Origin: Bacteroidaceae bacterium
GTDB lineage: Bacteria; Bacteroidota; Bacteroidia; Bacteroidales; Bacteroidaceae
Reading direction: 5' to 3'
Assembly (NCBI GenBank): GCA_017556045.1
Contig: JAFZFF010000104.1
Span: forward strand, 1-61,104
DNA length: 61,104 bases
The position numbers and the translations under genes were made by a program. Below are positions 4,959-11,344 of this stretch, piece by piece; position 1 is the first letter of the stretch; the number at the start of each line of letters is the position of its first letter. The notes beneath the pieces are model-generated. The model was given only the letters and a program-made list of their open reading frames with translations. It was not told the DNA's origin and made no database searches.

Positions 4959-5124
4959 ATGTGTACGGGTATTACGTTTCAGGGATTCAGGAGTTAAAGG
5001 GAGATATCGCTTCGCTCTTTGGGGAGTTAAATGCCGATAGTTTAGCACATCGCGTACAAATCATTTGGCCTTTATCTCCATTTATCTCCATTGACTCCAT
5101 TTATCTACCTACTTAGTTAAACAT

Positions 5125-5159
5125 AGAGAGCGACTAAAATTGCCATTTAGCCGCTCTCT
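5125..5159 (-). terminator. Hairpin downstream of metK, possible bidirectional terminator
   Basis: A 14-bp stem (AGAGAGCGGCTAAA with one G-U pair) lies just past the metK stop codon. The T-run is on the plus-strand side (TTTTATTTTC). The minus side is less T-rich, so termination of metK by this hairpin is likely but not certain. Confidence 0.5.
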
Positions 5160-5175
5160 TTTATTTTCAGATTTA

Positions 5176-6468
5176 TTACAGACCGAATGCCTCTTTTACC
5201 TTATCCACATAGTCGAGTTTCTCCCATGTGAAGAGTTCTACAGTGACATCCTTGTCGCCCTCGTAGCGTGAGCGGAAGCTCTTGGTTACGATCTCGGGCT
5301 TGCGGCCCATGTGGCCATAAGCTGCAGTCTCGGTATAGATGGGGTTGCGCAGCTTGAGGCGCTCCTCGATAGCTTTGGGGCGGAGGTCAAAGAGTTCGTC
5401 AATCTTCTTGGCAATCTCGCCATCGGTCATGTTCACGCGGCTGCGGCCATAGGTATCTACATAGATATTGATGGGCTTAGCCACACCGATAGCGTATGAT
5501 ACCTGCACGAGCATCTCATCAGCTACACCTGCAGCTACGAGGTTCTTGGCGATGTGACGTGCAGCGTATGCAGCACTGCGGTCTACCTTACTGGGGTCCT
5601 TACCACTGAAGGCACCACCACCGTGAGCACCCTTACCACCGTAGGTATCTACGATGATCTTGCGGCCTGTGAGACCAGTGTCACCGTGAGGACCACCGAT
5701 CACAAACTTACCTGTGGGGTTCACATGATAGGTGATGTGGTCATTGAAGAGTGCCAACACATCTTCGTTGGTGATGCCAGCGATGACGCGGGGCATGAGG
5801 ATCTCGATGACGTCCTGACGAATCTTTGCCAACATCTCCTCATCGGCCTTGAGCTGAGCCTCCTTGCTGCTGTCGGCAGGAGCTACGAACTCATCGTGCT
5901 GGGTAGACACTACGATAGTGTCGATGCGGATGGGCTTGCCATTGTCATCATATTCGATAGTCACCTGGCTCTTGGCATCGGGGCGGAGGTAGGTCATCAC
6001 CTCACCCTCGCGACGGATGTCAGCAAGCACCTGGAGGATGTTATGTGCGAGGTCGAGCGAGAGAGGCATATAGTTCTCAGTCTCGTTGGTAGCGTAGCCA
6101 AACATCATACCCTGGTCACCAGCACCCTGGTTCATGGGGTCTTCGCGCTCTACGCCACGATTGATGTCGGCGCTCTGCTCATGGATGGCAGAGAATACGC
6201 CACATGAGTTGCCCTCAAACATATACTCGCTCTTGGTGTAACCAATCTTGTTGATCACCTCACGTGCGATGAGCTGCAGGTCAACGTATGCACTTGTTTT
6301 CACTTCACCGGCGATAACGACCTGTCCGGTGGTTACCAATGTTTCGCAAGCTACCTTCGAGTTGGGGTCATAAGCCAACAACTTGTCCAGTACAGCGTCC
6401 GATATTTGATCGGCCACTTTGTCGGGGTGTCCCTCAGACACCGATTCGGATGTAAACAGATATCCCAT
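5176..6468 (-). CDS. metK: S-adenosylmethionine synthase
   Basis: 430 residues; the family is usually 380-430. It makes SAM from methionine and ATP in the cytoplasm. Visible signatures are [16 protein letters not shown] near residue 14, the family motif [15 protein letters not shown] near residue 115, and the glycine-rich [19 protein letters not shown] near residue 270. The gene is monocistronic. Its leader of about 130 nt carries a SAM-II-like riboswitch (6540-6593) preceded by a strong promoter (6608-6639), which suggests feedback control by its own product. Confidence 0.97.
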
Positions 6469-6539
6469 TAGTACAAATATTAAAAATGTAAAACAATCAA
6501 AACCAATGGGGATAGTCGAGAGAATGCATACAGCGAACG

Positions 6540-6593
6540 CCGTGTAATTTTAGCATTTTTTACTGTGGTTGCAAGCTGCTCAAATCTATCCAC
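6540..6593 (-). ncRNA. SAM-II-like riboswitch in the metK leader
   Basis: Reading the minus strand, GTGG pairs with CCAC around a loop containing GATTT and GCTTGCAA. This is followed by an A-rich linker and GCTAAAA. These conserved blocks and their order match the SAM-II (SAM_alpha, metA-type) aptamer, an H-type pseudoknot. Part of the loop (AGCA) can pair with the downstream TGCT. The element begins about 8 nt from the predicted transcription start and ends 72 nt before the metK ATG. SAM-II was described mainly from Alphaproteobacteria; my recollection is that Bacteroidetes members exist. No obvious terminator lies between aptamer and gene, so control may be translational. Confidence 0.7.
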
Positions 6594-6607
6594 TTCATTT
6601 TCGGGTA

Positions 6608-6639
6608 CAAAATTAGTGCAAGGCGAGCGAAAAAGCAAA
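6608..6639 (-). promoter_or_regulatory. metK promoter
   Basis: TTTG (6636-6639), exactly 20 nt, then TAATTTTG (6608-6615) on the minus strand. This is a full match to the Bacteroidetes -33/-7 consensus. It places the transcript start around 6601, just before the riboswitch. Confidence 0.8.
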
Positions 6640-6778
6640 TTTCAACGGGTGAATGTAGAGAAATGCTTGAATTTTCTTCGCTTAGGCTCAGCATGACATG
6701 AGACATTGAGTCGGTCCACACCCACAAAAAAAAGCCGACGCTTAGCATCGGCTCCCTATATCATGCACAGAGGGTTTC
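6640..6778. other. Intergenic region between metK promoter and sdaA
   Basis: It contains, at 6673-6700, a half copy (CTTCGC, GCTCAGCATGACA) of the dispersed palindrome seen in full at 9865 and 43850. Nothing gene-like was found. Confidence 0.5.
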
Positions 6779-8011
6779 CTACAAGAACATCGAAGACTCT
6801 TCGTTGCCCCACATCTGCTTGTAGTTGTGTGCCAAGCCACCCTCTGAGGTCTCCTTATAGAGTGAGGGCAGGTCGTGACCTGTCTTCTTCATCACCTCTA
6901 CCACCTTGTCAAACGACACGCGGTGTACGCCATCGGTAAACATAGCGTATGAGTTGGCATCCATGGCGCGAGCCGCAGCATAGGCATTACGCTCGATACA
7001 AGGTATCTGCACCAGCCCGCACACGGGGTCACAGGTGAGTCCCAAGTGATGCTCCAGTCCCATCTCGGCAGCATACTCAATCTGCGAGGGCATACCTCCG
7101 AAGAGCTGTGCCGCCGCAGCAGCAGCCATAGCACACGCTACGCCCACCTCGCCCTGACAGCCCACCTCGGCACCCGAGATAGAGGCATTGGTCTTGACGA
7201 TATTACCAAAGAGACCCGCAGTAGCCAAGGCACGTATGATGCGCTGCTCCGAGAAGTTGCGCGACTTATAGAGGTGATACAACACGGCAGGCAACACTCC
7301 GCACGAGCCACATGTGGGCGCCGTCACGATCTTTCCACCAGCAGCATTCTCCTCGCTCACCGCCAAGGCATAGGCAAAGAGCAGTCCGCGGGTACGCATC
7401 GACTGCTGATAACCCTCGGCACGCACATAGTAGAGCGCAGCCTTACGGCGCAGACAGAGCGGACCGGGCAACACGCCCTCCTGCTCGAGACCACGCTGCA
7501 CAGCCTCCTTCATCGTGTGCCACACCTCGGTCAGGTACTCCCATATCTCGGGACCTTCACACTCCTCTACATACTCCCAGTAGCTCTTACCCGTAGAGAT
7601 ACACCACGAGAGTATCTCCGTCGCCGTGCTCATCTCATACACCTGCTTATGCTCGATAGGCTTCTGACCCTCCTCGGCCAATGCACCGCCTCCGACGCTA
7701 TATACGGTCCACTCATCTACACGCTGACCTCCGCTACCCAGCGCACGGAACTTCATGCCATTGGGGTGGAAGGGGAGAAATACCTTGGGCTCCCATACGA
7801 TGGTGGTACGCTCCTCGCCCAGCACCTCCAAGATAGCCTGGTCCGTCATGTGTCCCTTGCCCGTAGCGGCGAGACTGCCATAGAGAGTTACTTCGAAGCC
7901 TGTAGCCTCGGCATTACGTGCCAAAAACTTGGTAGCGGCATTGCGCGGACCCATCGTATGACTGCTCGAAGGGCCGTGACCTATGCGGTAGAGTTCTTTC
8001 AGTGAGTACAT
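6779..8011 (-). CDS. sdaA: L-serine ammonia-lyase (L-serine dehydratase)
   Basis: 410 residues from the ATG at 8011 (MYSLKELYRIGHGPSSSHTMG). The longer upstream frame runs through the promoter. It is a single-chain [4Fe-4S] enzyme with the beta-type domain first (SSSHTMGPRNAA near residue 15) and the alpha-type domain after it (TAPTCGSCGVLPAVLYH, SISGAEVGCQGEVGVACAMAA, GLTCDPVCGLVQIPCIERNA). The conserved cysteines that hold the cluster are present. It converts L-serine to pyruvate and ammonia. The gene is transcribed alone and shares a divergent promoter region with the PAP2 gene. Confidence 0.93.
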   Translation of the reverse strand: MYSLKELYRIGHGPSSSHTMGPRNAATKFLARNAEATGFEVTLYGSLAATGKGHMTDQAILEVLGEERTTIVWEPKVFLPFHPNGMKFRALGSGGQRVDEWTVYSVGGGALAEEGQKPIEHKQVYEMSTATEILSWCISTGKSYWEYVEECEGPEIWEYLTEVWHTMKEAVQRGLEQEGVLPGPLCLRRKAALYYVRAEGYQQSMRTRGLLFAYALAVSEENAAGGKIVTAPTCGSCGVLPAVLYHLYKSRNFSEQRIIRALATAGLFGNIVKTNASISGAEVGCQGEVGVACAMAAAAAAQLFGGMPSQIEYAAEMGLEHHLGLTCDPVCGLVQIPCIERNAYAAARAMDANSYAMFTDGVHRVSFDKVVEVMKKTGHDLPSLYKETSEGGLAHNYKQMWGNEESSMFL

Positions 8012-8038
8012 AAAGATGTTAAAATATAATACCTCGTG

Positions 8039-8066
8039 CAAAGGTAATAGATTTTTTGTATCTTTG
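8039..8066. promoter_or_regulatory. Divergent -7 boxes for sdaA and the PAP2 gene
   Basis: TACCTTTG on the minus strand (8039-8046) faces sdaA. TATCTTTG on the plus strand (8059-8066) faces the phosphatase gene. The -33 partners are weak in both directions. Confidence 0.5.
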
Positions 8067-8115
8067 CGTTCAAAAAGCAGATTAAGAGAAATTTTTATCA
8101 AAAAAAACACCGATT

Positions 8116-10860: not shown

Positions 10861-10947
10861 TTTCAGGTGATAAAAGTTTATTTTCGGGGTGGCATGGCAG
10901 AGCGAGCGGAGCTCGCTAATGGACAATTGATAATGGATAATTGATAA
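10861..10947 (+). repeat. 87-bp inverted repeat, left arm
   Basis: It begins TTTCAGGTGATAAAAG, contains a palindrome AGCGAGC-GGA-GCTCGCT, and ends in ATTGATAATGGATAATTGATAA. It matches the reverse complement of 11461-11547 with about 4 mismatches over 87 positions. Confidence 0.85.
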
Positions 10948-11248
10948 TGGATAATTGATAATTGGCCTCCGGACTTTTTATTTAGGCAATAATATAGATG
11001 TAGTATTTAACGTGCGTAAAAAACATATTGCATGTGCATAATAATTTTATTGCATGTGTAGAAATTTCTTACTCGATGTATGCACCTGACAAATTGGACA
11101 GCTGCAATTTTTGCAACGGAGGTCTGTGATTTTTCTCGAGGACAGCTCTGATAATTTTACCAAACAGCTTTGATTTTCATGACTGAGATTAGGCTAGAAA
11201 AAGGGAGGTTCGATTGCAAGAAAAGGCCTTTGTGTTTTCTAAAAATCT

Positions 11249-11314
11249 AACAGCCCTTTTCTAAAAAACGAACAGGCCTTTTCTAAAAAACGAACAGGCC
11301 TTTTCCCAAAAACG
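11249..11314 (+). repeat. 22-nt tandem repeat, three copies plus a degenerate one
   Basis: The unit AACAGGCCTTTTCTAAAAAA plus CG starts at 11249, 11271 and 11293. A degraded copy precedes it from 11221. Confidence 0.85.
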
Positions 11315-11344
11315 AGCCTATGATTTTTCAGTGTAAAGCAAAAT

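Follow-up and report, generated by a model that had tools for sequence, protein, structure and literature searches.

A SAM-II long-loop riboswitch candidate before metK in a Bacteroidaceae bacterium, with a possible competing fold and start-codon hairpin in its leader

The metK leader of this Bacteroidaceae bacterium carries a SAM-II long-loop riboswitch candidate (RF01726), and the comparison of related leaders suggests an alternative fold that competes with the aptamer and a hairpin that contains the metK start codon. As a riboswitch candidate the element is ordinary: the family is known, also from this phylum. What deserves further attention is the expression platform, not the aptamer. We tentatively read the leader as a SAM-sensing OFF switch (RF01726) that would act through start-codon occlusion. 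A more doubtful proposition is that the metK SAM-II elements of Bacteroidota share an undescribed platform, in which one strand would alternate between the aptamer 5' half and the metK start codon, the ligand closing the AUG. The control of SAM synthase by its own product is common and, to our knowledge, the mRNAs of the Bacteroidetes phylum lack the usual Shine-Dalgarno sequence. As far as the open-licence literature searched shows, riboswitch action in a phylum lacking this sequence has not been worked out, and among the matches listed we found no mechanism for SAM-II in Bacteroidetes. If true, the proposed mechanism would provide a concrete, testable output for most of the Bacteroidales sampled, and its design would possibly be common to other riboswitches of the phylum.

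The window, i.e., the whole stretch of 61,104 nucleotides that was analysed, contains a single match above any gathering score in cmscan, which covers positions 1-60 of the 60 in the RF01726 model (E 2.9e-7 for the whole window; Table 1). Together with the TIGR01034 assignment of metK, this match bears out the initial annotation, which had proposed a SAM-II-type riboswitch before metK. The motif order that it had described can also be read directly on the minus strand: GTGG-ATAG-ATTTG-AGCAG-CTTGC-AACCAC, an A-rich linker and GCTAAAA, with GATTTG at 6586-6581 and GCTTGCAA at 6576-6569. The core of RF01726, a P1 stem with GAUUUG, UUGCAACC and GCUAAA, is present in both sequence and alignment. 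Indeed, the element resembles the family of Weinberg 2010 in sequence, length, core and taxon, with no difference in the aptamer, although the 60-position model stops shortly past GCUAAA and does not include the downstream strands of the metK leader. The family named initially, RF00521 (SAM_alpha/SAM-II, the metA motif), proved to be the wrong one. It presents the same order of P1, GAUUUG, GCUUGCA, A-rich linker and GCUAAA, but the covariance search that had been proposed reached only 14.7 bits (cut-off 36, E 1.1) on the same element, so that this check would have failed where the sister family RF01726 passes. The window appears not to have the long P2a that follows GCUAAA immediately in RF00521; directly after GCUAAA, its loop CAG faces TTA with two of three pairs. 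Such a proximal partner is mainly found in the ATTGC loop class, and the proximal test over all loops gave z +1.7. SAM-V is absent from the six Rfam matches obtained up to E 10 in 6300-6900. In its own genome (78% complete), RF01726 has one match above cut-off, the other six listed being at 17 bits or less.

Table 1. Positions of the elements of the metK leader and of metK in the window, with the basis of each assignment.
Feature	Positions	Strand	Basis
Predicted promoter: TTTG 6639-6636, 20 nt spacer, -7 box TAATTTTG 6615-6608	6608-6639	-	sequence
SAM-II (long loop) aptamer, RF01726	6540-6599	-	52.7 bits, gathering 44
P1 5' strand GTGG, partner CCAC 6568-6565	6590-6593	-	sequence and cmscan alignment
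P1 3' strand CCAC	6565-6568	-	sequence and cmscan alignment
Conserved GCTAAAA; third pseudoknot strand in published SAM-II/SAM-V folds	6548-6554	-	sequence, alignment; role inferred from PMC6061858
Small hairpin ACGGC-GUUC-GCUGU, interval between aptamer and candidate anti-aptamer strand	6530-6543	-	fold; sequence varies among sister leaders
Candidate anti-aptamer strand GCATTCTCTCGACTATCCCC; its complement is aptamer segment 6593-6571	6508-6527	-	duplex -16.2 to -16.5 kcal/mol
Predicted start-codon hairpin, 5' arm TATCCCCATTGGT, overlapping the candidate anti-aptamer strand at 6514-6508	6502-6514	-	folds and duplex
Predicted start-codon hairpin, 3' arm ACTAATGGGATA, containing the metK ATG 6468-6466	6461-6472	-	folds and duplex
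metK, S-adenosylmethionine synthase, 430 aa, ATG at 6468	5176-6468	-	TIGR01034 503.9 bits, cut-off 309.4

The element is widespread among the relatives of this bacterium. When sought in sister genomes, RF01726 was found above cut-off, own genome included, in 17/19 genomes of the genus, 164/201 of the family, 263/393 sampled from the order and 41/296 of the phylum sample. In the order sample, three genomes (G002, G083 and G213) have two matches and the others with a match have one. A search of plasmids yielded no match. Within the genus of the window, G410 has no match and G398 has only one of 23.7 bits, cases in which loss and incomplete assembly are indistinguishable. The initial annotation noted SAM-II as described mainly from Alphaproteobacteria; that such an element is unexpected in Bacteroidales is not supported by the record: the table of Weinberg 2010 enters 'SAM-II long loops' (RF01726) for 'Bacteroidetes, marine' (PMC2864571), and B. 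thetaiotaomicron already appears in the SAM-II alignment legend of Corbino 2005 (PMC1273637).

The leader, on the minus strand and with a predicted length of about 130-140 nt, is flanked by metK and by a gene for L-serine ammonia-lyase (6779-8110, TIGR00720). The position initially given, between a metK promoter and metK, agrees with the TTTG and -7 box just upstream, which we take to be a Bacteroidetes-type promoter, and with metK downstream. The initial annotation also predicted a transcript start about 8 nt before the element. TAnnTTTG occurs in the 45 nt that precede P1 in 196 of the 223 parsed loci (3.3% in shuffled sequence), at a median of 16 nt upstream of the GG of P1, which is also the distance in the window. 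Therefore, a predicted leader that begins just upstream of the aptamer appears to be the rule. The metK AUG of the window is located 81 nt downstream of GCUAA. In L043, L046, L049, L051 and L053, all from the genus of the window, the leaders extend 139-151 nt past GCTAA and contain, after the C-rich arm and ahead of the ATG, TTGAGAATTGAAAA-type repeats, of which the window has none. A short upstream ORF at 6529-6497 was considered as a possible leader peptide and rejected: of the 15 sister leaders parsed, only L042 has its ATG in place, L047, L051 and L053 have GTG at this position, and it is absent from the others.

The comparisons are based on leaders parsed by a sequence pattern, which recovered 173 of the 178 loci of a first set, all with metK after the element, and 50 of the 108 loci of a second set; the misfits (5/178 and 58/108) were left out. 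Leaders shorter than 50-66 nt or longer than 160-200 nt and loops longer than 13 nt were excluded from the tests, hence the differing numbers of loci. In the own-vs-other test, the duplex energy of a segment from locus i with the leader of locus j was computed, row and column means were removed, and own pairs were compared with permuted pairs using one locus per distinct segment; energies were capped at 0 in the later tests.

The aptamer 5' half is complementary to its own leader with z -11.0 (204 loci, 90 distinct segments) and with -5.8 in 45 held-out loci, compared with -0.1 for upstream DNA and -1.4 for shuffled leaders. Using one locus per leader cluster at three thresholds, z was -3.3 (29 clusters), -6.2 (68) and -11.5 (115), with upstream controls at -0.4, 0.3 and 0.9; the single largest cluster holds 168, 119 or 52 loci. 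The complementary leader segment has a median position of -58 to -39 from the AUG, that is, about 40-60 nt upstream. A helix over the aptamer 5' half would disrupt both P1 and the ligand pocket, hence the name anti-aptamer. In the window, the candidate duplex includes CTATCC (6515-6510) facing GGATAG (6591-6586). An exact 5-nt complement of the own GGANN is present in 13 of the 16 parsed leaders of the window's genus, window included (TATCC 9/10, TCTCC 2/4, TTTCC 2/2). Tested in this genus alone, there was no covariation, neither for the 5' half (z +0.7, 6 distinct segments) nor for the loop (+1.6, 4). The P1 5' strand alone gave no signal against the leader in the first test and z -1.6 (9-mer), -2.8 (GGANNGA) and -2.6 in later ones.

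The loop alone was tested against its own leader without the first 7 nt after GCTAA. The initial 172 loci gave z -5.0, the 47 added later -3.3 and the combined 219 -5.5; as controls, DNA preceding the aptamer gave -1.6, the beginning of metK -0.7 and shuffled leaders -2.4. Examples of loops with their partners are GAGTAG/CTACTC, GACTG/CAGTC, GATTG/CAATC and GGTTGA/TCAACC, and exact Watson-Crick complements of the loop core are more frequent in own than in other leaders for GAGTAG (0.83/0.01), GATTG (0.84/0.16) and GACTG (0.40/0.08). Loop cores GGCTG (0.06 own vs 0.02 other) and GAGCAG (0 vs 0.02) present no such excess; for GAGCAG, the core of the window, none of its 10 loci has an exact Watson-Crick complement and 4/10 have one if G-U is allowed.

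This signal could also be explained without an anti-aptamer, if a long loop connected the distal strand to the SAM-bound pseudoknot as the 3' strand of a P2a helix. We consider this unlikely, but keep it because the own-locus signal is clearest for the loop core (GAxUG, GAGUAG), the site of P2a pairing in SAM-II, the pairing flanking a perfectly paired core is not clearly raised (0.54, 0.44 and 0.42 on the 5' side; 0.35, 0.35 and 0.31 on the 3' side), the complement of UUGC is no better in own than in other leaders in the 10-nt loop class, and the GG of P1 pairs highly in controls also. In addition, loops of the CTTGC class mostly do not have the short proximal partner. Against it, the entire aptamer 5' half is stronger than the loop, and the leader complement reaches the invariant UUGC, exceeding shuffled leaders at most positions. 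Furthermore, a downstream GCAAT complementary to the core is found in 14/28 second-set ATTGC loci, but in only 5/80 of the first set, and the class contrast is weak: GCAAT/GCAAG and CAATC/CAAGC relate to the A/C loop class with p about 0.04 over all loci.

Start-codon occlusion is also addressed by the other end of the leader. In the window, TATCCCCATTGGT is predicted to pair with ACTAATGGGATA by both fold and duplex calculations, and UAUCCCCAUUGGU with ACUAAUGGGAUA around the AUG; the fold of 6448-6547 as such is unremarkable compared with shuffles (z -1.29). Over 207 loci, the start region (-8..+9) is complementary to its own leader with z -7.3, compared with 0.0 for the upstream control and -1.2 for its own leader shuffled; with each cluster represented by one locus, z was -3.1, -3.9 and -4.7 at the three thresholds. 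The signal is maximal at leader positions -50..-34 (z -4.2). Leader positions -66..-16 gave z -6.2 against the start region in 195 loci, and values between -2.0 and -4.3 when five subsamples of 43 were drawn; no complementarity was found (z +0.7) in 43 comparison metK leaders without a pattern-found element, which were taken from the 58 second-set misfits and several of which visibly hold GCTAAA, i.e., elements missed by the pattern. On their own, the start codon with the next 6 nt (z -0.5) and the first 12 coding nucleotides (-1.4) are weak, so that much of the start signal appears to lie in -8..-1. The six bases that open the coding sequence have a predicted pairing of 0.761, vs 0.708 with shuffled leaders (160 loci). 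For Flavobacterium johnsoniae, PMC6847099 reports start regions that are little paired. TCCC accompanies AUGGG starts in 82/115 leaders vs 23/57 (Fisher p 1.2e-4, in clades that are not independent); leaders of ATGGGT starts have TCCC in 14/20 and ACCC in 6/20, and those of ATGGGA starts in 67/94 and 8/94, respectively.

An OFF switch could instead operate by transcription attenuation, the freed pyrimidine-rich strand loading Rho, or a hairpin terminating, before metK. This is also improbable in our estimation, although, in alpha- and beta-Proteobacteria, terminators are the most frequent association of SAM-II (PMC2258182, PMC6061858). TTCCC occurs in 65/172 leaders, with 16.4 expected from shuffles, and a strict scan found an intrinsic-terminator-like hairpin after the aptamer in 5/222 leaders (L070, L073, L146, L206 and L207) and in none of three shuffled sets; at least three further leaders (L166, L173 and L182), missed by the scan, appear terminator-like by eye. 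Therefore, some lineages may attenuate transcription. Nevertheless, from the aptamer to the ATG the scan detected no intrinsic terminator, defined by a G+C-rich hairpin with a U run, either in the window or in most leaders, and attenuation leaves the start-region complementarity unexplained.

That the aptamer alone is functional and the downstream complementarities stem from inherited chance or from composition is very improbable: the loci are related and shuffled leaders still reach z -2.4 in the loop test, but the controls from upstream DNA (-1.6 to 0.9) and from coding sequence show almost no signal, and the signal was repeated in held-out loci and kept at one locus per cluster. The aptamer-side and start-side locus-specific complementarities are both well supported. 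The coupling of the two folds is a hypothesis weakly supported by the models. The TATCC of the window faces both GGATAG in the aptamer and GGGATA in the start region, and the leader segments that pair with the aptamer and with the start region share positions in 67% of 204 loci, where random placement would give 55%. When the anti-aptamer strand was blocked in folding calculations over 195 loci, AUG pairing decreased from 0.726 to 0.609, compared with 0.653 when other segments were blocked (p 0.002); the pairing of -8..+9 did not change relative to other segments (0.521 vs 0.522). In the modelled states of the window, the AUG is paired in both (1.00 and 0.98) and the pairing of -8..+9 drops from 0.78 to 0.58.

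Under the start-codon occlusion that we tentatively prefer, the strand 6527-6508 would pair with the aptamer 5' half (6593-6571) at low SAM, undoing P1 and the ligand pocket. With SAM bound, the pseudoknot would retain the 5' half and free this strand, whose C-rich end and the following bases could then pair with the start region (6472-6461), making the AUG inaccessible to ribosomes. Closure of the start codon would thus substitute for the masking of a Shine-Dalgarno sequence, which is absent in the phylum. The initial idea that the output must operate without this sequence is supported; that it might be unusual had been a guess, which the comparative data now make more concrete by pointing to a possible combination of anti-aptamer strand and start-codon hairpin. 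Among known systems, SAM-V is described in PMC6061858 as a related pseudoknot and a translational OFF switch, like the reading proposed here, but it buries a Shine-Dalgarno sequence adjoining the aptamer, whereas the AUG of the window is distant from GCUAA and no such sequence is expected. The metA SAM-II of S. meliloti, as presented in PMC9373788, affects translation at a distance, as proposed for the window, but, unlike it, uses a Shine-Dalgarno sequence and has an intrinsic terminator downstream.

Outside the leader, a strong inverted repeat, GAGAGCGGCTAAA...TTTAGTCGCTCTC, was seen by eye directly after metK (5126-5159) and is likely the metK terminator. Short tandem arrays, including TTTATCTCCA and the 22-nt unit TTTTCTAAAAAACGAACAGGCC, are located at 5071-5106, 10917-10964 and 11235-11315 of the window.
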